DNA from: Victivallales bacterium
GTDB lineage: Bacteria; Verrucomicrobiota; Lentisphaeria; Oligosphaerales; Lenti-02
Direction: 5' to 3'
Assembly (NCBI GenBank): GCA_018648945.1
Contig: JABGQJ010000349.1
Location: forward strand, 1-7,913
DNA: 7,913 nt
Of the stretch, positions 1-7,913 are shown one piece after another. The translations under genes were made by a program, and so were the position numbers. The number at the start of each line of letters is the position of its first letter. The stretch's first letter is position 1. Below the pieces are notes generated by a model. It did not search any database and had not been told where the DNA came from. It saw only the letters and a list, made by a program, of their open reading frames with translations.

Positions 1-846
1 ATAGGGCAGCGTGCAGTCTTGCACGGCCAGCGCGTTCATGTACTTCTCGTAGGCGGCTTGATCGGGAATCTTGATGTTGTGGCTTTCCGGCCGATTCTCC
101 ACCGCCAGATTGCCCTTGCCCTTGATGGTATGGGCGAGGATCATGGTCGGGCGACCCTCAACCTTCTGAGCGGCGGTCAGCGTCTCGTACAGCGCGTCCC
201 AGTCGTGCCCATCCACCTCCATCACTTCCCAGCCGAAGGCGCGCCACTTGTCGGCGAGGGGTTCGAGGTCCAGCACTTCCTCGGTGAAGCCATCGATCTG
301 CAGCTTGTTGTAGTCGCAGATGGCGACCAGATTGTCCAGCTTGTTGTGGGCGGCGAACATGCCCGCCTCCCAGTTCTGCCCCTCGTTGCTCTCGCCATCG
401 CCGATGATGCAGAACACGGTGTGGTCCTGGCCATCCATCTTGCCGGCGAGGGCCGCACCACAGGCGCAGGAGAGTCCCTGACCCAGCGAACCGGTGGTCA
501 TGTCCACTCCCGGCACAAACCGCTCGTCCGCGTGGCTGGGCAACTTGGTGCCGTCGGCGTTCAGCGTCCCCAACCAGTCCTTGGGGAAGAACCCCTCATA
601 GGCCAGGGCCACATACAGCACCGGCGCGGCATGGCCCTTGGAGAGAACCAGCCGGTCCCGGTCCTCCCACTTGGGGTTGGCCGGGTCATATCGCATCACC
701 CGCTTGTAGAGAGTCAGCACGACCTCCACCAGCGAGAGTGCCCCGCCCAGGTGTCCAGATCCCGCCCGGCAGATCATGTCGGTAATCACATACCGCCACT
801 CGCCCGCCAAGCGGTCGAATTCCACTCGCTCAAAGGTGTCTTTCAC
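1..846 (-). CDS. Transketolase N-terminal subunit (split type), 3' end cut off
   Basis: This encodes the thiamine-diphosphate (ThDP) binding half of a two-subunit transketolase, which moves two-carbon ketol units between sugar phosphates. The 282 visible residues contain GSGHLGG (about 29-35), SKGHAAP (about 69-75), the ThDP/metal motif beginning GDGESNEG (149-156) and closing at DYN (178-180), and LAHTIKGKG near 237-245. Family members of this split form are roughly 270-285 residues, so little is missing; the stop lies beyond position 1. The start is GTG at 844-846, overlapping the TGA of the transporter gene in a GTGA junction, with GGAAAGGGA ending about 6 nt upstream. A C-terminal (pyrimidine-binding) subunit gene is expected just outside the window. 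Being last in the operon, it probably serves the same sugar pathway. Besides general pentose phosphate use, split transketolases occur in dedicated pathways such as apulose-4-phosphate and sulfofructose cleavage; the substrate here cannot be read from sequence. Confidence 0.95.
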   Translation of the reverse strand, partial: MKDTFERVEFDRLAGEWRYVITDMICRAGSGHLGGALSLVEVVLTLYKRVMRYDPANPKWEDRDRLVLSKGHAAPVLYVALAYEGFFPKDWLGTLNADGTKLPSHADERFVPGVDMTTGSLGQGLSCACGAALAGKMDGQDHTVFCIIGDGESNEGQNWEAGMFAAHNKLDNLVAICDYNKLQIDGFTEEVLDLEPLADKWRAFGWEVMEVDGHDWDALYETLTAAQKVEGRPTMILAHTIKGKGNLAVENRPESHNIKIPDQAAYEKYMNALAVQDCTLPY

Positions 847-1799
847 GTCGATTCCCTTTCCGTCGCCGCACACATTTCAGAGTCAGCGGGCGCGGCTTCT
901 GCCGCCGTCGCCCGACCGGCCCGCAACCACACGATTCCCGCCGCGCCCAGCAGGATCAACAACATGCCTGGAATCTGCCCGCTCTCGGGGGACTTCCCCT
1001 GGAATCCCCAACTCACCACCGCTGCCACCACCGGCGCCAGCAGGCAGATCAGCCGCGCTTCCCACGCCGGGCATGTCCGCAACCCCACGTTGTAGCAGGC
1101 GAAGAAGATGTAGGCCAGCACGCCGAGCCCAATCAGGGCCATACCCGTCTCGCCACGCAGAGCGGCGGGGATCGCCGACAGGGAATCCGTGCAGCCCACC
1201 ACCACCACGAACATCACCGCGTTGAGGGTGCAGTTCATGAAGCCTACCGCCAACCCGTTCAGACGCCGCAGGGCCCGCTGGGCCGCGAACGCGTTGGCGG
1301 CAACAAAGAACGCCGAGATCAGCACCAACCCATCCCCGATCGACGCGGCTTCCATCGCCCCCCTGAACACACCGACAAGCAAACACGCCCCAAGGAGCAT
1401 GACCGGCACAAACAGGTACGCCTGCCGCGCGATGCGCTCGCGAAACACAAGCACCGAGATAAGCAGCGAGAACAGCACGTCGCTCCGAGCCAAGGCAGCC
1501 ATATTGACCGGCGTGGTCAGGCTGGCGCCCTGGAGGCCAGTCAGATTGGCGGTGATCCCGAACGCGCCGACCAGGAGGGTGGGAGACAACGCCGACCAAC
1601 CAGGCCAGGGGTTTGCCTTGCCGGTCCGCCCCATATAGGCATGGCGCGCCAACAGGCTCGCACCGAGGAGAAGGCTGCTGACCACGAATAGGCACGCACC
1701 CGTGACCGGCATGCCCACTGCCCGGGTAGCCGAGGTCATCAGCGGATACTCCAACCCCCAGGCTATCGCTGCAACCAGGATGAAGAGGGGACCTCGCAT
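843..1799 (-). CDS. EamA/DMT-superfamily membrane transporter
   Basis: This is an integral membrane permease of the drug/metabolite transporter superfamily, with two EamA repeats (about residues 4-145 and 155-293) and about ten hydrophobic segments over 318 residues. Typical signs are the N-terminal helix ending in WGLEYP, the glycine and small-residue-rich helices, a conserved-looking glutamate in VFRERI after the fourth helix, and a charged C-terminal tail. The family exports or imports small metabolites, including sugars, amino acids and nucleotide sugars; direction and substrate are not predictable here. The start is uncertain. ATG at 1797-1799 places the first helix right at the N-terminus and lies 17 nt after the upstream stop, with GGAG 12 nt before it. 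ATG at 1809-1811 has GGAG too close, and GTG at 1836-1838 would overlap the NagB-like gene by 22 nt and has no clear ribosome binding site. The stop overlaps the transketolase start. Within the operon it is the likely uptake or efflux partner of the pathway. Confidence 0.92.
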   Translation of the reverse strand: MRGPLFILVAAIAWGLEYPLMTSATRAVGMPVTGACLFVVSSLLLGASLLARHAYMGRTGKANPWPGWSALSPTLLVGAFGITANLTGLQGASLTTPVNMAALARSDVLFSLLISVLVFRERIARQAYLFVPVMLLGACLLVGVFRGAMEAASIGDGLVLISAFFVAANAFAAQRALRRLNGLAVGFMNCTLNAVMFVVVVGCTDSLSAIPAALRGETGMALIGLGVLAYIFFACYNVGLRTCPAWEARLICLLAPVVAAVVSWGFQGKSPESGQIPGMLLILLGAAGIVWLRAGRATAAEAAPADSEMCAATEREST

Positions 1800-1816
1800 G
1801 CAGTCGATCATCTCCG

Positions 1817-2662
1817 TTAGAGGGCGTTCCCAGGACACGCCAGGGTTTCACGGTCGGTCGCAATCACGTAGTCCAAACCACGAATGTGGGTCACTGGATA
1901 GTCGTCGCCAGGCGCGCCGAATAGGGCCACCCGGAGGATCGTGTTCGCCCAGTCGAAGGGACAGCCATTGCGACAGTAAAGGCGAATGCGCCGCGCCCCC
2001 AGAATCTGGGCCATGCCCAGCGTAAAGGCCGCGCGGGGGAAACACTCGAGATTGCCGCCAACCTGAGCGCGCACGGCGTTGATGGTCACTGTGAAGTCGT
2101 TCAGCCGCACCCGTCGCGGCCCCAGCTCGGCCACGCCCGGCTCCGGCTCGTTGAAGGCCACGTGCCCGTGGATGCCGATGCCGCCGAAGCACGTATCAAG
2201 CCCGCCGATCTCGTCGATCAGCGCCGCAAGCTCATCGATATTGCGCTCGTCCGGGAACACAATCTGTTCAGCTGGCGGCAGCAACTCGGGATCGATCCTG
2301 CTCAGGAACTGCTCCCGTGCAATCGCCTGGAAACTCAGCGGATGCTCCGGACCAATCGCCCGCCCGTCCTCGCCAATGTACTCATCCATGAAGAACAGCC
2401 ACGCATTGGCCAGCGAGAGCCGCTCCCGATTCACGATCTCGGCAAAGTAGGGGTATTGCCCCACCGGCCCGACGGGCACGATCCAGCGGCTAGGTTCACC
2501 CGCCGCATTGCGCGTCCGCAGCTCGGTCGCCAGATCCTCGGCGAATCCGCGATGCAGCATATCGAGATTCCCGTAGACCACCAACCGGTCGCCGGCGCGA
2601 GCCACCACCTGGTCGGGGCTCAGCCGGTTCAGCTCGCGGATCTCTTCACGGCGCTCAGCCAT
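1817..2662 (-). CDS. NagB-like sugar isomerase/deaminase, divergent active site
   Basis: The 281-residue product belongs to the glucosamine-6-phosphate deaminase/6-phosphogluconolactonase fold family. The NagB landmarks are FFMDEYIG (Asp93, equivalent to E. coli Asp72) and GGIGIHGHVAFNEP (160-173), which keeps the ring-opening His167 and Glu172 (E. coli His143 and Glu148). The residue matching catalytic Asp141 is His165, read directly as codon CAC. The phosphate-binding loop TGGTP of E. coli NagB is replaced by VGPVGQ (64-69). I infer that the enzyme works on a different or non-phosphorylated amino sugar, or performs isomerisation without ordinary deamination. The start ATG at 2660-2662 is chosen because GGAGGAG (2670-2676) sits 7 nt upstream; longer readings to 2734 overlap the amidohydrolase further and have no family similarity. 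The start overlaps the amidohydrolase stop by 8 nt. Membership of the fold family is firm, but the exact reaction is open. Confidence 0.88.
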   Translation of the reverse strand: MAERREEIRELNRLSPDQVVARAGDRLVVYGNLDMLHRGFAEDLATELRTRNAAGEPSRWIVPVGPVGQYPYFAEIVNRERLSLANAWLFFMDEYIGEDGRAIGPEHPLSFQAIAREQFLSRIDPELLPPAEQIVFPDERNIDELAALIDEIGGLDTCFGGIGIHGHVAFNEPEPGVAELGPRRVRLNDFTVTINAVRAQVGGNLECFPRAAFTLGMAQILGARRIRLYCRNGCPFDWANTILRVALFGAPGDDYPVTHIRGLDYVIATDRETLACPGNAL

Positions 2663-3506
2663 CGCCCTTCTCCTCCACGACATAGCCCACGGTCTGGTAG
2701 TCGCTCTGTATCTCGCCCAGGAATTCCCGCGCATTGTCCCGGTACACCCGCGCTTCCTCTTCCGGCGTCAAGGCCAGCGCCGACAGCAGACGCCGGTGAT
2801 GGCCGATGGCGGCAGGCAGGTCGCGGTAGTGGACATCCGTCCCGAAGATCAGCTTCCGGCCCCAGGTCTCCCAGTGGAAGAGACCGGCCATGAACTCCGC
2901 CGACTTGGCCGTGTACCAACCGCCGTTCGGGCTGCCCGTGGCATCCACGTAGATGTTCGGCACAATCCGGGCCAGTGTCGTCGCGGTCTCGTATTCTGGC
3001 ACTCCCAGATGCGCGATCTGGAGACGCAGATCTGGGAACCGCCGCGCGACCCCATCCAGCCGCATCGGTCGCATGAACTCAGCACTGGTATAGACGCCCC
3101 TCACATGCGCCATCACCCCGGAGTGGAACAAAATGGGCAACCCCAGTTCCTCGGCCTTCGCATAGATCGGGAAGGCCCGCTCGTCGTCATACGAAATCAG
3201 CGGCTGGGTCATTTTCAGCCCCCGGAATCCGCGACTCTTCGCCGCCGTCACTACATCGACCCCGGCCCGGCCCAACACGAGGAAACAGAGCGGCACCAGC
3301 TGCTCCGGGAAGGCCTCCGCCGCCGCCAGGACGCCCGCGTTGTCCAGCATCCCCCACGTTGAACCCAGGCCCGAAACCACCACCCGCTCGATCCCGCACG
3401 CTGCCGCTGTCTCTAGATGACGCGCCGCGTAGTCCGGTTCGGCCAGCAGATGGGCGTGACCGTCGACCGCGCCGGAGACACCAATCACGTTGTCCGTCGC
3501 ACTCAT
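2655..3506 (-). CDS. Amidohydrolase family protein (ACMSD/lactonase-like TIM barrel)
   Basis: This 283-residue metal-dependent hydrolase is of the amidohydrolase-2 type, whose relatives include ACMSD decarboxylase, 2-pyrone-4,6-dicarboxylate lactonase and sugar lactonases. The expected TIM-barrel metal and active-site residues are present in order: DGHAH (His17, His19) at the end of strand 1, Lys98 in GLKMTQP, His128 in ILFHSG, His166 in LQIAHLG, and Asp224 in FGTDVHY. No signal peptide is seen, so it should act in the cytoplasm. The ATG at 3504-3506 overlaps the ROK stop as ATGA, with a GGGGG tract about 10 nt upstream. Upstream in-frame codons reach 3767 but lie wholly inside the ROK gene and encode unrelated sequence. 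With its neighbours it may open a sugar lactone or remove an acyl group from an amino sugar before the NagB-like step. Family assignment is secure; the substrate is unknown. Confidence 0.93.
   Translation of the reverse strand: MSATDNVIGVSGAVDGHAHLLAEPDYAARHLETAAACGIERVVVSGLGSTWGMLDNAGVLAAAEAFPEQLVPLCFLVLGRAGVDVVTAAKSRGFRGLKMTQPLISYDDERAFPIYAKAEELGLPILFHSGVMAHVRGVYTSAEFMRPMRLDGVARRFPDLRLQIAHLGVPEYETATTLARIVPNIYVDATGSPNGGWYTAKSAEFMAGLFHWETWGRKLIFGTDVHYRDLPAAIGHHRRLLSALALTPEEEARVYRDNAREFLGEIQSDYQTVGYVVEEKGDG
2670..2676 (-). promoter_or_regulatory. Strong Shine-Dalgarno for the NagB-like gene
   Basis: GGAGGAG on the minus strand, 7 nt before the ATG at 2662. It lies inside the last codons of the amidohydrolase gene, which fits translational coupling and decides the start of the NagB-like gene. 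Confidence 0.75.
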
Positions 3507-4633
3507 GCCGCATTGCCCCCTGCAAGCAGAGCCGTGAAATAGCCAGGCAGGACCTGTGCGCCCGCGCGCAACGCCGCCCCAATCGCGGTCTTGAACTCCG
3601 CCTGCTCCCCGAACACCAACCGGGGCTGGGTCAGAGGCAGACTCCCAAACTCCTCGCCAATCGCTGCCGTCAGCAGCGGCCGAAGCTCGTCCGCGAACGG
3701 GTTGTAGACACCGTTCAGCAGCACCATCGGCGGATGAAATACCTTCAGTAGATTCGCGATCCCGCACCCCAGCGCCGCCGCTCGAATACGCAAGACTGCG
3801 TGTCGTTCGTCCTCGGCCAGGTCAGCGAGCACGGGCAATGTCCGTCCCGAAGCCCGTACGTCCAGACACCCCGGCAGGCCACAGACACAAACCGGACCAT
3901 CGGCAAACAGCCGCATGTGCCCGAACTCCCCCGCAAAATCGGCCTCCCCCGAGAGCAGCCGCCCCTTGCCATACAGCGCCGCACCCAGACCATAGCGGAC
4001 CAGGATACTCAGGAAGCCCTCTTCGCCACGGGCTACGCCCACCCGCCGTTCGTACTCCGAGACACATAGCACGTTGTTCGCCGCCATCGCCGGGACCCCA
4101 TGCGTGCCAAGAGGCACCTGGGCATCCAGTTCGGCCCACTGCCCGGGGGGCAGAAAGGCCCGCGTCCGGAACCCCTGCCGTGCCACCACCCCCGGCAGAC
4201 CGCCACCCACCGCCGCCAGACGCCCCGGCGGAACCGCCGCGCGTTCGATCACTCGCGCCACCAGTTCCTGCCACTCGACGAGCATCCGTTCCACTGGCCA
4301 GTCGGCCCCAATCTGGCAAATCTCGCCCGCCACCACCTCGCGCCGACCGTCCAGCACACAGGCCCGCAACGCCCCACCCTCCAGATCGGTCCCCAAGAGG
4401 TACACGCAATCCGGGCACGCCGACAACGGCACCGTCCGCCGCCCCGGACCGCCCTTCTCACGCTCCGTCGCCTCCCCCTCGCGCACCAATCCGCACTCCA
4501 GCAACGGCCCCACCGTACGACTCACCGACGCCTTGCTGATCCCCAACGCCGCCGCCAGATCCCGGCGACAACACGACGCCTCCGTGACCAGATAGGTCAG
4601 GATTCGCGCCGCAATCTGTCCACGTCCACTCAT
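3503..4633 (-). CDS. ROK-family transcriptional regulator
   Basis: The 376-residue product is a NagC/XylR-type sugar-responsive repressor. An N-terminal winged helix-turn-helix occupies about residues 8-52 (CRRDLAAALGISKASVSRTV region), followed by a ROK sugar-binding domain. The ROK zinc signature is intact: GEFGH (His239) and CVCGLPGC (Cys249, Cys251, Cys256). By eye alignment the position of the catalytic Asp of ROK kinases (NDAN motif) is Ala185, in AANN before Glu193, so it should sense a sugar without phosphorylating it. The ATG at 4631-4633 is preceded by a modest GGGGTGG about 7 nt upstream. It is the first gene of the operon and sits directly behind a promoter overlapped by an inverted repeat, which suggests it represses its own operon and is released by the pathway sugar. 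The regulator class is clear; the effector is unknown. Confidence 0.95.
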   Translation of the reverse strand: MSGRGQIAARILTYLVTEASCCRRDLAAALGISKASVSRTVGPLLECGLVREGEATEREKGGPGRRTVPLSACPDCVYLLGTDLEGGALRACVLDGRREVVAGEICQIGADWPVERMLVEWQELVARVIERAAVPPGRLAAVGGGLPGVVARQGFRTRAFLPPGQWAELDAQVPLGTHGVPAMAANNVLCVSEYERRVGVARGEEGFLSILVRYGLGAALYGKGRLLSGEADFAGEFGHMRLFADGPVCVCGLPGCLDVRASGRTLPVLADLAEDERHAVLRIRAAALGCGIANLLKVFHPPMVLLNGVYNPFADELRPLLTAAIGEEFGSLPLTQPRLVFGEQAEFKTAIGAALRAGAQVLPGYFTALLAGGNAA

Positions 4634-4663
4634 TCGTCAGCCACCCCGGACCATCAGAATGAA

Positions 4664-4683
4664 AAAGTTTACAATGAAACTAA
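4664..4683. promoter_or_regulatory. Candidate ROK operator (inverted repeat)
   Basis: AAAGTTT (4664-4670), spacer ACAATG, AAACTAA (4677-4683). The inner AGTTT/AAACT arms pair perfectly. On the minus strand it starts TTAGTTT, the same half-site found in the Bacillus xyl operator bound by the ROK repressor XylR, though with a shorter spacer. It is an AT-rich island in a GC-rich window, overlaps the predicted -10 box and lies 31 nt before the ROK start. Autoregulation is inferred. Confidence 0.5.
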
Positions 4684-4708
4684 TACATCTAGTGAACTGC
4701 CAAAGCAA
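4680..4708 (-). promoter_or_regulatory. Sigma-70-like promoter of the five-gene operon
   Basis: The minus strand reads TTGCTT (-35, 4703-4708), a 17-nt spacer, then TATTAG (-10, 4680-4685). The boxes match consensus only partly, but the spacing is ideal and the position, about 50 nt before the ROK start codon, is right. No other AT-rich promoter-like stretch is seen in the operon. Confidence 0.5.
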
Positions 4709-4725
4709 ACCGCCCAGACGGGTTT
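4707..4725 (-). terminator. Weak terminator-like hairpin after the oleC-like gene
   Basis: On the minus strand AAACCCG pairs with CGGTTT across a TCTGGG loop with one bulged C, followed by GCTTTGG. It starts 8 nt after the oleC stop. The T tract is poor and the hairpin touches the -35 box of the next operon, so the call is tentative. Confidence 0.25.
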
Positions 4726-4733
4726 TCTTGCCG

Positions 4734-6398
4734 CTACCCGCTCTGCTTCGCGGCCCATTCGGCCAGCACTTCCCGCCGGATCTTGGCGTTGTGCCGGATA
4801 TCCACGGGGAAAGACCTGTGCAGGAGGATGCGCTCGATGCCAGCAGTCTCGGGGTTGGCAAGGAGTAGGTCGCGGACTTGCTGCCGCAGGGCTGCCTGCG
4901 CCGACTCGCTCTCCGGGAGTTGACCAGGCATGGGCTCCAGGATCAGGATGGGGGTCTGGCGCATGCGGTCGGGGCCGATCCCGACCAGGGCGGAGCGGTA
5001 GACGGCGGGATGCTCGTTGGCGATGGCTTCGCAACGGACGGTGAAGAGGGTTGCCTCACCAGTCTCGACGCGGTGGGTCTTGCGGCCGCAGAACCAGATC
5101 CGGCCCTGCTCGTCGAGGTAGCCCACGTCGCCCATGCGGTGCCAGACGGTCTCGCCATCCCGCATCTTGGCCAGGCGGGTCGCCTCGGGCAGGTTGTGGT
5201 ACTGGCGGGTGACCACATCGCCCTTCACGCAGATCTCGCCGATGGTTCCGTCGGGTACCACCATGCTCGGGTCCCAATCGGTGATGGGCTCGTCGGAAAT
5301 GCGGATGATGTGGCACTCCACGGTTGGCAGTGGTTTGCCCACGCACATGCCCTGCCCGGCCTGGGTCTTGTCCGCCGTCTCGGCCAGCATCTCGCTACCC
5401 GCGAAGTTGGCGACGGGCAGGGATTCCGTGGCCCCATAGGGCGTATAGGTTTCTGCCCCTGTCGGCAACACGCTCCCGAGCAGACGCTCATGTACGTAGC
5501 CGGGCACGGGTGCGCCGGCCATGATGATGCGGGTCAGGGTCGGGAAGCGGATGCCATTCTCGACGCAATACTCGCTCACCCGCGCCCACAGGGTCGGTGA
5601 CCCGAAAGAGTAGGTGACGCCCTGGTTCAGAATCGGTTCGATGATGCGTTCCGGGTCCACCAGAGCCGGCTTCGATGGATCCATGTCCGGAATCACCGCC
5701 GTGGCGCCCAAGGCCGTGCTGAACAAGGCGAACAGCGGGAAACAGGGCAGATCGATGTCGCCTGGACCAATGCCGTATTGCTCGCGCAGAATCTCGGTCT
5801 GCGTCGTGAAGATGCGATGACTGTAAACGACCCCTTTGGCCGGACCGGTGCTGCCCGTGGTGAACAAGACCGCCGCCATGTCCTGCGGCTCGACTGCCTG
5901 CACCGGGAATGGCTCGTCGTGCTCAGGCATCTCGTCCACCGAACACCCGCCCCAGAACCACCGTTTGCCCAAGGTCACCGGAATCTGGATGCTGCGGAAG
6001 AACTTCCGGCGCACCAGTCGCAACACATGCGCCGCCGGAATTCCCAGGAACGCCTCTGGTGCCGACTGCTCCACGCAACGCATGAACTTCCCCCAGCCCA
6101 TGCCCGGATCGATCAGTACCGGCACCGCCCCGATCTTGAAGATCGCGAAGGTGAGCGCAAAGAAATCCAGCGATGGCTTCACCATCAGCAAGGTCTTCAT
6201 GCCCTGCTTCACGCCGGCCTCCTGCAAGCCCCAGGCATACCGATCGCACAGCCGGTCCAGTTGGGCAAAGGTCAACTGGGTATAGGCCACGCGCCCCGAG
6301 CGGTCGCGGGAATCAGGATACACCACCGCCCGCGCAAACGGGATCTGCCGGGCCATCTCGGGGAGGTAGTGCGCGATGTTGTGACAAGCGTCGGGCAT
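4734..6398 (-). CDS. oleC: OleC-like AMP-dependent ligase (beta-lactone synthetase family)
   Basis: The 554-residue ANL-superfamily enzyme closely follows OleC, which uses ATP to close beta-hydroxy acids to beta-lactones in long-chain olefin biosynthesis. OleC was earlier annotated as a fatty acid-CoA ligase. Visible motifs are NIAHYLPEMA at the N-terminus, the P-loop TTGSTGPAKG (180-189), YTPYGATES (318-326), WHRMGDVGYLDEQG with adenosine-binding Asp424, FCGRKTHRVET (436-446) and the C-terminal catalytic lysine in DIRHNAKIRRE (Lys539). These match OleC more specifically than general acyl-CoA synthetases. The ATG at 6396-6398 fits the family N-terminus and has AGGA about 8 nt upstream; the reading frame stays open to 7073, but that extension is translated repeat and antisense-like sequence. 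The stop is TAG at 4734-4736. No oleA, oleB or oleD lies next to it in this window, so its substrate could be another beta-hydroxy acid. A convergent CoA-ligase role is the main alternative. Confidence 0.92.
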   Translation of the reverse strand: MPDACHNIAHYLPEMARQIPFARAVVYPDSRDRSGRVAYTQLTFAQLDRLCDRYAWGLQEAGVKQGMKTLLMVKPSLDFFALTFAIFKIGAVPVLIDPGMGWGKFMRCVEQSAPEAFLGIPAAHVLRLVRRKFFRSIQIPVTLGKRWFWGGCSVDEMPEHDEPFPVQAVEPQDMAAVLFTTGSTGPAKGVVYSHRIFTTQTEILREQYGIGPGDIDLPCFPLFALFSTALGATAVIPDMDPSKPALVDPERIIEPILNQGVTYSFGSPTLWARVSEYCVENGIRFPTLTRIIMAGAPVPGYVHERLLGSVLPTGAETYTPYGATESLPVANFAGSEMLAETADKTQAGQGMCVGKPLPTVECHIIRISDEPITDWDPSMVVPDGTIGEICVKGDVVTRQYHNLPEATRLAKMRDGETVWHRMGDVGYLDEQGRIWFCGRKTHRVETGEATLFTVRCEAIANEHPAVYRSALVGIGPDRMRQTPILILEPMPGQLPESESAQAALRQQVRDLLLANPETAGIERILLHRSFPVDIRHNAKIRREVLAEWAAKQSG

Positions 6399-6487
6399 GG
6401 GGCATCCTGGTCGGGAGAGAAAGGCGATGGGGAAACATACCGTGGCCCAACCCGACTGCCACCGCCGGTGGGGAGAGGGAGAATGGC

Positions 6488-6531
6488 GGGGCGCTGCCCC
6501 GGAACCCCGCCGGGGAGACGTGTCTCCCCGG
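6488..6531. repeat. Nested GC-rich palindromes including a 22-bp palindrome
   Basis: GGGGC-GCT-GCCCC forms a hairpin at 6488-6500. At 6510-6531 the arm CCGGGGAGAC is followed by GT and its exact reverse complement GTCTCCCCGG, a 10-bp-arm palindrome. CCCC/GGGG at 6505-6515 can pair alternatively, so the two hairpins compete. There is no T tract on either strand, so a simple intrinsic terminator is not supported. The palindrome adjoins the structured element copy 1. Confidence 0.8.
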
Positions 6532-6617
6532 ACCCCACATGAAGGGTTGGCGGTACGGTCGGCGCGATGCGCCGTGCCGCAGAGCGGCACCAACCGACTG
6601 CCACTGCTCGCGCACCG
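6526..6617 (-). repeat. Structured dispersed element, copy 1
   Basis: Read on the minus strand, a 23-nt block (6595-6617) leads into a 49-nt variable middle (6546-6594), then CCTTCATGTGGGGTC (6531-6545). The middle begins and ends with GTTGG/CCAAC, extended by the flanks to GGTTGG/CCAACC. It encloses two hairpins: GTGCCGC-TCT-GCGGCAC (6574-6590) and CGGCGC-ATC-GCGCCG (6560-6574), which share one boundary base. Both flanking blocks recur in inverted orientation at 7826-7908, with a different middle that also folds. This may be a mobile palindromic repeat or a structured RNA; neither is shown. Confidence 0.7.
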
Positions 6618-6630
6618 CCACGACGTCCCC

Positions 6631-6663
6631 AGAGTGGAAGCGGCGTCTCGCCGCTTGGTCTTC
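6631..6663 (+). repeat. REP-like hairpin repeat, copy A
   Basis: Core AAGCGGCGTCTCGCCGCTT (6638-6656) is a perfect 8-bp stem with a TCT loop, flanked by AGAGTGG and GGTCTTC. Copy B at 6783-6814 is the same sequence on the other strand with two substitutions and one indel. Confidence 0.8.
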
Positions 6664-6732
6664 AGTACCAATGACCCCGGCCAGGAGGAAAGCAGGGAGA
6701 TGGGATTTGCCGATGCACAAGCACCAGCGAAC

Positions 6733-6759
6733 GTGAAAGCGGCCCCCCGCCGCTCGGCC
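6733..6759 (+). repeat. REP-like hairpin repeat, degenerate copy C
   Basis: GTGAAAGCGGC, CCCCC, GCCGCTCGGCC. It matches copy A at 21 of 27 positions and keeps the AGCGGC/GCCGCT stem, while the loop is changed to five C. It has the same orientation as copy A. Confidence 0.55.
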
Positions 6760-6782
6760 CCAGCACCACTGGCCCAGCTCAG

Positions 6783-6814
6783 GAAGACAAGCGGCAAGAT
6801 GCCGCTTCCACTCT
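6783..6814 (-). repeat. REP-like hairpin repeat, copy B
   Basis: On the minus strand the core AAGCGGCATCTTGCCGCTT (6789-6807) is a perfect 8-bp stem with a TCT loop. Relative to copy A the closing pair is A-T instead of G-C, a compensatory change. It starts about 20 nt after the isomerase stop and is followed by GTCTTCC, so it could also end that transcript. Confidence 0.8.
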
Positions 6815-6828
6815 CGCCAGCGCCTTCA

Positions 6829-7647
6829 TTACCCGAGCACGGACCGGCAGAGGGCATCGAGACAAGCGCCAGTTTCGGCGCAGGCCTGTTCCATGTCGGG
6901 CTCTTCGAGCTCGATGTCGATACTACCCCGGAAGCCAATTTGGGCGAGGCCACGGAATGCCTGGGCCATGTCGATGGCACCGGAAACGACACTGCGATGG
7001 TCGCGCCAATCCGCCACCCGAACATTGTGGGCGTGCACGGCAACCACCCGGTCGCCGAGTTCAGTGAGAACATCGCTGATGGTCTGGTTGAGCAACCCTA
7101 CGCGCCGACCCAGATCGGGTTGGGCGGTGACTTCGACGAAGTAGGCGCAATGGCCAAGGTCGATGGTCGCGCCCACAGCGGGGTGATCCACCTCCCGAAT
7201 CAGCCGCAGGTAGGTGTCCCTCGCACCCCCCTCGTTCTCGATCCCTACGCGAATGCCGTGCGCCTGCGCATAGTCCCCGACCACGCGCCAGTGCCGTGCC
7301 GTCGCCGCCAGCCACTCGCTCGGATCGCCCTGGCAGATCCCCGCATGCACAGCGACCACCTGGGCCCCGACCAGCTTGGCGCAGTCGATCCAGCCTTGCC
7401 AGTCTTGATCCCAGGCTTGGTGAATGGATACCCGGGCGAAGCCGTCGAGCAATCCCTGAAGCTGCCCTCGTCCCGCCGGATCATCATAGCCCAGTGTCGG
7501 GAACGGGCCGAGAGAGTGTTTGGCATTGGGGCCACCGGGCAGCGACATCACTGACTGGAAACCCAGTTCCCGCGCCTTGACCAGCGCCTCTGGCAACGAG
7601 TACCCAGCCAGGGAAGGCAACCCAAGACAGATGCATTCGTGAAACAT
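6829..7647 (-). CDS. Sugar phosphate isomerase/epimerase-like TIM-barrel protein
   Basis: The 272-residue product belongs to the xylose isomerase-like TIM-barrel (AP endonuclease 2) family, cytoplasmic enzymes that isomerise or epimerise sugars or act as sugar-ring hydratases and dehydratases. Likely metal ligands appear in the usual order: VGIENEG (Glu137/Glu139), GATIDLGH (Asp163, His166), VVAVHAHN (His205/His207) and DIELEEPD (Glu246/Glu248). VAVHAG near 98-103 marks an earlier strand. The length is normal. The ATG at 7645-7647 gives an N-terminus (MFHECICLGLP) that suits the family and has GGAG at 7659-7662, 11 nt upstream. A longer reading to 7710 has no ribosome binding site. The stop is TAA at 6829-6831. 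It stands alone between repeat-rich spacers and need not belong to the operon at 1-4633, although a related sugar role is plausible. Substrate unknown. Confidence 0.93.
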   Translation of the reverse strand: MFHECICLGLPSLAGYSLPEALVKARELGFQSVMSLPGGPNAKHSLGPFPTLGYDDPAGRGQLQGLLDGFARVSIHQAWDQDWQGWIDCAKLVGAQVVAVHAGICQGDPSEWLAATARHWRVVGDYAQAHGIRVGIENEGGARDTYLRLIREVDHPAVGATIDLGHCAYFVEVTAQPDLGRRVGLLNQTISDVLTELGDRVVAVHAHNVRVADWRDHRSVVSGAIDMAQAFRGLAQIGFRGSIDIELEEPDMEQACAETGACLDALCRSVLG

Positions 7648-7717
7648 GGTCCGGCATTCTCCGCAGTTCGGTGGCTTGCCGTAGACTAGCGCGGCATGCG
7701 GCAATGTCATTCTGGGG

Positions 7718-7757
7718 GGAATGATGGAATGATGGAATGATGGAATAGTGGAATGGG
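7718..7757. repeat. Octamer tandem repeat (GGAATGAT)
   Basis: Three perfect copies of GGAATGAT (7718-7741) are followed by two degenerate units, GGAATAGT and GGAATGGG (to 7757). The array is upstream of the isomerase gene, 71-110 nt before its start codon, so it could affect promoter spacing. It may equally be neutral slippage. Confidence 0.85.
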
Positions 7758-7825
7758 AGAGGGTTGGGGGTTCAGATGGTTCAGCTGCGGGCTGGAAGTT
7801 GCTTCCCTTCAGGCGAGCTCCGCTT

Positions 7826-7913
7826 CGGTGCGCCAGCAGCGGCAGTCGCTTTGCGGAGGGGGTTGTCGCGGCGCGACGGCCCGCTCCGCAAAGCCTTCAT
7901 GTGGGGTCGGGGG
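7826..7913 (+). repeat. Structured dispersed element, copy 2 (runs off the window)
   Basis: The first block (7826-7848) matches the reverse complement of 6595-6617 at 21 of 23 positions. A 45-nt middle (7849-7893) follows, then CCTTCATGTGGGGTC (7894-7908), identical to copy 1. The middle is bounded by CTTTGCGGAG and CTCCGCAAAG; with one flank base on each side this makes an 11-bp stem (7848-7858 with 7884-7894). It encloses GTCGCG-G-CGCGAC (7865-7877). The middle sequence is unlike copy 1, yet a stem is kept in the same place. The stretch 7758-7825 between the tandem repeat and this element holds only a small GGAAG-TTG-CTTCC hairpin. Confidence 0.7.

Follow-up and report, generated by a model that had tools for sequence, protein, structure and literature searches.

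Two inverted hairpin copies beside an isomerase gene belong to a dispersed, lineage-restricted family of intergenic repeats in a Lentisphaerota order

Fungal mitochondria carry double-hairpin elements (DHE), and the stems of integron attC sites vary between sites. In sponge mitochondria, repetitive hairpin elements (RHE) are described as having conserved stems, with substitutions in the loops (PMC2800124). Repetitive extragenic palindromes (REPs) are described with a GTAG/CGTC tag beside the palindrome, and those of other bacteria as lying downstream of genes, with many plausibly transcribed (PMC3733652). Template switching, which makes and keeps hairpins, has been proposed for RNA genes (PMC8794818), and template-switch mutation is described at quasipalindrome hotspots in Escherichia coli (PMC7202029). 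Here we considered a hairpin repeat that occurs as two inverted copies, A and B, in a contig of a Victivallales bacterium (GenBank assembly GCA_018648945.1, contig JABGQJ010000349.1, positions 1 to 7,913 of the forward strand; the whole 7,913-nt stretch is referred to as the window). Both copies are members of a dispersed, lineage-restricted, intergenic hairpin-repeat family of a Lentisphaerota order. No description of this repeat was found among the papers returned by our literature searches, as judged by titles and the openings of abstracts.

The repeat is similar in behavior to REPs and to miniature inverted-repeat transposable elements (MITEs), and by the features tested it is not a member of the GTAG/CGTC REPs. 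With REPs, bacterial interspersed mosaic elements (BIMEs) and the inverted REP doublets known as REPINs it shares being dispersed, intergenic, palindromic, mostly gene-downstream, often arranged in inverted pairs and lineage-restricted (REP features as given in PMC3733652 and PMC3116915). It differs from them in its unit, which measures 111-139 nt as aligned (about 110-140 nt) and consists of three hairpins in series (H1, H2 and H3) plus a conserved tail, compared with a palindromic unit of 20-40 bp. It also differs in that GTAG, CGTC and their complements do not occur in the majority consensus of our main alignment (A3; a consensus with unresolved positions), in that no linked Y1 transposase gene was found in the regions fetched, and in having a single variable hairpin between more constant flanks, a contrast that is clear in A3 and slight in an alignment of copies from another genome (G011). 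With MITE-like elements such as the enterobacterial RU repeats, as these are described in PMC2759123, it has in common that it is non-coding and short, that some copies have inverted ends and that copy number differs between relatives. Unlike MITEs, it comes without an identified target-site duplication or parent transposon, and many of its copies are one-ended. What it shares with the RHEs of sponge mitochondria and the DHEs of fungal mitochondria is the patchy distribution of hairpin repeats that invade intergenic DNA; in contrast to RHEs, our repeat sits on a bacterial chromosome, and its changes affect both arms of the H3 stem itself. Finally, as in template-switch (quasipalindrome) mutation, both arms change together and a multi-base segment can become an exact complement, a pattern described for RNA genes (PMC8794818) and E. 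coli hotspots (PMC7202029); here such mutation would operate throughout an entire repeat family.

Copies A and B face each other tail to tail, 1,208 nt apart, across a gene for a xylose-isomerase-like TIM-barrel protein ("isomerase"). The block at 6531-6545 on the plus strand (GACCCCACATGAAGG) is the complement of 7894-7908 at 15/15 positions, and the block at 6595-6617 (plus) is identical to 7826-7848 (minus) at 21/23. The stretches between these blocks measure 49 nt in copy A and 45 nt in copy B, and both are bounded by complementary arms, namely the outer H3 arms GGTTGG/CCAACC at 6545-6550 and 6590-6595 in copy A, and the 11-bp H3 arms GCTTTGCGGAG/CTCCGCAAAGC at 7848-7858 and 7884-7894 in copy B. 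The blocks, the middles and their arms had been noted in the original prediction and were verified on the sequence. The A-B pair is the longest among the inverted pairs listed for the window in a repeat search, and its BLASTN E value was 5e-7 when copy A was compared with the window and 80 fetched loci. Of the extent first proposed, the two inverted copies stood; copy A begins about 40 nt earlier, which adds H1 and H2, and copy B runs off the end of the window.

Copy A, at 6487..6617 on the plus strand, is complete as modeled. It starts with the short hairpin H1 (CGGGGCGCTGCCCCG, 6487..6501; A3 columns 2-6 with 10-14), followed by the hairpin H2 (CCGGGGAGACGTGTCTCCCCGG, 6510..6531; A3 columns 26-34 with 41-49) and a conserved H2-H3 spacer seen in both sequence and alignment (ACCCCACATGAAG, 6532..6544). 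The variable H3, with two small inner hairpins, spans 6545..6595 according to sequence, fold and alignment (A3 columns 72-84 with 110-122), and the conserved tail (CGACTGCCACTGCTCGCGCACCG, 6595..6617), which contains the 21 positions identical to copy B, is kept in relatives. Copy B occupies 7826..7913 on the minus strand and is truncated by the window end, so that H1 and most of H2 lie outside. Its tail (7826..7848) falls within stretches of 83-92% identity that BLAST matched at six places in a related genome (SZUA-436, here G002), its variable H3 (7848..7894, from the fold) has an arm sequence identical to that of two G002 copies (L081 and L085), and the 3' end of H2 with the spacer (7895..7913) holds the 15/15 block.

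The family was found through relatives. With copy B as BLAST query against three genomes of the family of SZUA-436, six places were obtained, all in G002. The copies follow a common plan of H1 GGGGCGCTGCCCC, H2 CCGGGGAG..CTCCCCGG, GGACCCC, the variable H3 and the conserved tail, after which some units carry a lineage-specific extension or a second inverted unit facing tail to tail. Alignment A3 contains 23 copies (window copy A, G002 and G006), and from these, with copy B excluded, a covariance model (R1) was built. R1 matched copy A at 92.3 bits, although this copy is in its training set, and it recovered the held-out copy B at 52.3 bits (E 3.4e-7 in 245,575 bases; model positions 39-129, cut at the 5' side). 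Among the matches listed, R1 gave 13 in G002, 52 in G006 and 0 in G001, three genomes of one family, and it matched 8 of 47 genomes of one order (13, 50, 51, 37, 5, 4, 3 and 1); these are matches and not exact copy numbers, as a palindromic place may count on both strands.

The exact H1-H2 head pattern occurred in 6 of 54 genomes, all of them within the 8 order members included and none among the 46 others, and its reversed control had no match across all 54. In a sample of 387 genomes of the phylum the exact pattern was present in G002 alone, with no control match among the rows listed; G008 and G012, two members of this sample with weak R1 matches, lack it. When R1 was run on 288 phylum genomes, with no more than 11 candidates per genome scored, it matched G002 and, weakly, G198 (E 6.4e-6), a genome that is not among the 47 of the order. 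The exact flank blocks of the window had no match in viral contigs, in genome contigs or in five relatives, and since relatives differ in the head block, these negatives merely show that the patterns were over-strict. A BLASTN comparison of 6500-7913 with plasmids returned nothing. The original prediction had proposed to look for further copies with middles that fold and covary; relatives proved to have many such copies, with middles that do fold and covary, and the outcome was in its favor.

Pairing in the A3 structure was kept in 92.9% of cells (81.6% in shuffles). Cells changed on both sides numbered 79 (25.9 in shuffles), two-sided change affected 12 of 30 pairs (7.9 in shuffles) and the score was 0.305 (0.096 in shuffles); the signal was destroyed when partner columns were slid. 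Most of the change was located in H3, where 11 of 13 pairs had changed on both sides. H2 was paired in 92.8% of cells, with two-sided change at 1 of 9 pairs, in 14 of the 23 sequences, and H1 was paired in 94.8%. The H3 stem in A3 is also clearly more variable, with a column identity of 0.72 compared with 0.88 for head and tail. Of the 18 H3 pairs in 19 copies from G011, 13 showed two-sided change, the score being 0.397 compared with 0.115. Although the H3 regions of copies A and B align poorly with each other, the middles of relatives align as one changing hairpin and are not unrelated cores; instead of the exchangeable core first suggested, a stem rewritten at the DNA level is the better description. 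A possible tail-inner hairpin pseudoknot, judged by eye, was dropped as it is not kept in G002. Three G003 copies (L145:1555-1667, L139:1525-1665 and L149:941-1054) are followed, within the tail region, by an additional long hairpin that is not the same from copy to copy.

A stem in RNA tolerates G-U and not A-C, whereas a DNA palindrome treats both alike. We therefore scored G-T and A-C both as mismatches in 103 stems with 2,044 stem positions; these stems came from 106 R1 hits after one duplicate (L101, the same place as L086), one hit with an N and one without a stem were dropped. There were 1,867 Watson-Crick pairs, 37 G-T, 49 A-C and 91 other mismatches. A small control of tRNA acceptor stems from the same loci (12 predicted tRNAs) gave 9 G-T and 2 A-C. 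In the separate alignments, G-T and A-C numbered 7 and 6 in A3 and 3 and 11 in G011. Among the changed cells of the two alignments, 72 had no wobble path and 39 had one (GC-AU type). At a flank divergence of 10-20%, Watson-Crick double differences exceeded single ones (112 vs 44 in G011, 219 vs 135 in A3). One copy (L117:3054-3184) carries in one arm a multi-base segment that is exactly complementary to the opposite arm; its seven aligned siblings keep the unpaired version. Because G-T does not exceed A-C, changes without a wobble path are in excess and an arm was rewritten on one side, correction of the palindrome at the DNA level is favored over selection on RNA. The mismatch pattern thus weakens the reading as a structured RNA under selection on folding, which the original prediction had offered as one of its two options.

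Gene context was determined with a frame-aware gene finder made for this analysis, which still mispredicts the isomerase start; an earlier gene finder, which placed 34 of 105 hits over predicted genes and had the gene on the H1 side directed toward the repeat in 48 of 66, was rejected because it misread GC-rich loci, the window included. The 105 distinct hits (the 106 R1 hits minus L101) are not all independent, because seven places matched on both strands with some overlap. Outside predicted genes lie 93 of the 105, comprising 13/13 in G002, 25/25 in G006, 31/31 in G011, 2/2 in the window and 22/34 in G003. The gene on the H1 side is directed toward the element in 61 of 88 cases with a known neighbor, and in 47 of these 61 its end is no more than 35 nt away; window copy A falls outside that pattern, as it faces the start of the gene for an OleC-like enzyme. 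Divergent gene pairs made up 4 of 69 spaces with an element and 12 of 92 without, which is no clear difference. The left edge at H1 is sharp, as sequence 40 nt further left is shared by 0 of 25 copies in G006 and 2 of 31 in G003, and it is less so in G011 (8 of 27). Co-linear similarity on the other side fades over roughly 130-380 nt. Two similar G003 copies (L143:1511-1636 and L146:1459-1584) lie inside long predicted genes, possibly as intragenic insertions or as errors of gene prediction.

Many copies are single rather than paired. After hits with more than 30 nt of overlap had been merged, the adjacent non-overlapping pairs less than 600 nt apart in the fetched loci were without exception arranged tail to tail (9 of 9); another three close pairs, which overlap slightly, are not part of this count. 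In these nine pairs the enclosed stretch is 19-459 nt long and free of predicted genes, and the interior is shared in three G006 pairs. In L172:4710-6742 (G011:C303), one intergenic space after another contains an inverted pair whose two units are 19-21 nt apart, the second units being weak (34-36 bits). Inverted units at both ends were seen in L117, L128, L162 and L172, and among 14 G011 copies viewed by eye, a second inverted end was seen in L162 and in none of the others.

A comparison is provided by a locus of SZUA-436 (L002). There, an isomerase (P0003, 72% identical) lies directly upstream of the OleC gene and ends 35-41 nt before it, and R1 had no match in this locus at E<=0.01. Since the two genes adjoin without a copy, either copy A was added to a gene pair that is conserved, or the copy has disappeared from L002. 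Of the two options in the original prediction, the palindromic mobile element is the better half. One such empty site and the differences in copy number between relatives fit mobility, but no excision, target duplication or transposase was found.

Taken with the mismatch data, we think it probable that the repeat is a non-coding structured intergenic element, a non-autonomous mobile palindrome of REP/BIME- or MITE-like type, with its H3 kept paired by template switching at the DNA level. Such an element would be tolerated close behind stop codons. Template switching during replication would use one H3 arm as the template for the other, so that both arms would change together, and the H3 stem would change and yet stay paired because the palindrome is repaired as DNA. 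Both the mobility of the repeat and template switching as the general cause of H3 change are what we infer from the pattern of copies. A wider proposal is possible, if doubtful: the repeat could represent a lineage-specific class of mobile serial-hairpin DNA in which H3 is repeatedly rewritten by templated palindrome copying, giving strong covariation without RNA selection, with H1, H2 and the tail as recognition part and H3 as a changing address or a by-product. Covariation is commonly regarded as the strongest evidence that sequence can give for a functional RNA, and this repeat passes covariation counts easily, yet its mismatch pattern points to DNA, which is a caution against calling such repeats RNA families. 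The family provides related hairpins by the dozen within a genome, a setting in which the correction of palindromes by template switching could be quantified. It is also a further repeat family for a bacterial group that has been little studied.

Several observations weigh against this interpretation. The main weakness is that the pair counts are cells and stems of related copies and not independent events. The clear one-arm rewrite was seen only once, and at a flank divergence below 10% double differences were not above single ones (0 vs 1 in G011, 8 vs 8 in A3). Further pair types in A3 were weakly above shuffles (28 vs 23.5, a value reached by 17 of 500). Two-sided change was absent from H1 (0 pairs) and from the tail hairpin in A3; the earlier claim that structure is kept while sequence changes holds for H3. 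In G011, H3 is hardly more variable than its surroundings (column identity 0.81 for the stem, 0.80 for the loop, 0.85 for the head and 0.87 for the tail). Predicted genes are overlapped by 12 of the 34 G003 hits, and an RNA element acting at 3' ends would likewise account for the fixed side toward stop codons. No target-site duplication or excision was found, the single empty site (L002) being too diverged for its junction to be read. As for a source of movement, no transposase linked to the repeat was found in 26 Y1 regions of four genomes: Y1 genes are present in 40 of the 47 order genomes, repeat-matching or not, and a copy lay within 2 kb of a Y1 gene in 1 of the 26 regions, about 1.2 kb away.

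The alternative that fares best is a structured RNA element at message 3' ends (a terminator, stabilizer or small RNA) in which selection for pairing in the RNA would maintain H3; we regard it as unlikely. The close approach of H1-side gene ends (47 of 61), the strong covariation in both A3 and G011 and the description of REPs elsewhere as gene-downstream and in many cases plausibly transcribed (PMC3733652) would all suit it. The wobble signature is nevertheless missing on either strand, in contrast to the small tRNA control, and changes that lack a wobble path are the more numerous class. Rfam gave 0 matches in the window at the gathering score; 11 loci searched at E<=1 yielded four microRNA-type matches below threshold, of which two fall on H3 of copy L096:2469-2599 (E 0.16-0.21) and two lie beside the L105 copy. 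A run of five T was found in 0 of 105 elements with 20 nt downstream, and TTTT in 10. The drop from 52 matches to 0 within one family, among the matches listed, argues against it as well. Separately, a hairpin at L105:1315-1398, about 110 nt from the copy, matched a microRNA family short of its gathering score, with 48.6 of 70 bits (E 4e-7), and is probably just another strong hairpin.

Less plausible still are REPINs proper, i.e., inverted REP doublets moved by a REP-associated tyrosine transposase (RAYT, Y1). The tail-to-tail orientation of all nine close pairs, the intergenic placement behind genes and the fact that each of the 8 repeat-matching genomes also has Y1_Tnp matches are in line with this idea, although some members of the inverted pairs score weakly (34-37 bits in L172). 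The A3 majority consensus, however, has neither GTAG nor CGTC, the unit with its three hairpins is far from 20-40 bp, and Y1 genes are as widespread as given above. The 26 regions scanned with R1 represent 28 of the 32 Y1 matches of G002, G003, G006 and G011; in a second of these regions a copy lies roughly 3 kb from the Y1 gene, and there the region had been extended on purpose to take in this known copy.

It is very improbable that the isomerase is the cargo of a composite element bounded by copies A and B. Their tail-to-tail arrangement around the gene is what such an element would have, but in L002 the isomerase stands next to OleC without copies, and it is therefore not cargo; the protein pairs P0004/P0105 and P0005/P0106, within each of which the longest contigs agree in length, suggest the same linkage elsewhere, and none of the nine other close pairs encloses a predicted gene. 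The isomerase is a bystander, and its bracketing, which the original prediction had pointed out, has no special meaning. Chance similarity of two GC-rich intergenic hairpins, for which the GC-rich and hairpin-rich region could be held responsible, can be practically dismissed in view of the BLASTN E value of 5e-7, the recovery of copy B by a model trained without it and the dozens of homologous places in relatives.

The genes of the window are all on the minus strand and include the N-terminal part of a transketolase, an EamA transporter, a protein without Pfam match, an amidohydrolase and a ROK-type protein with a helix-turn-helix, along with the isomerase (end at 6829). The OleC-like AMP-binding enzyme (4734-6398, minus; an olefin beta-lactone synthetase in the naming of one source) has 86% identity to its counterpart in L002 (SZUA-436; best segment, residues 1-414) and 81% to that in L001 (Lenti_02), and its gene adjoins sugar-metabolism genes. 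By its relatives, the organism belongs near Victivallales/Lentisphaerae bacteria. Between copy A and the isomerase stop lies a second inverted repeat of 27 nt, 93% complementary (6631-6657 / 6788-6814), each arm of which is itself a hairpin, AGTGGAAGCGGC..GCCGCTT. A motif made for it was matched twice in the window and not at all in the loci scanned from four relatives, and it may belong to another repeat family. Upstream of the isomerase, at 7718-7757, there are four head-to-tail 8-nt units, GGAATGAT, of which the later ones are imperfect.

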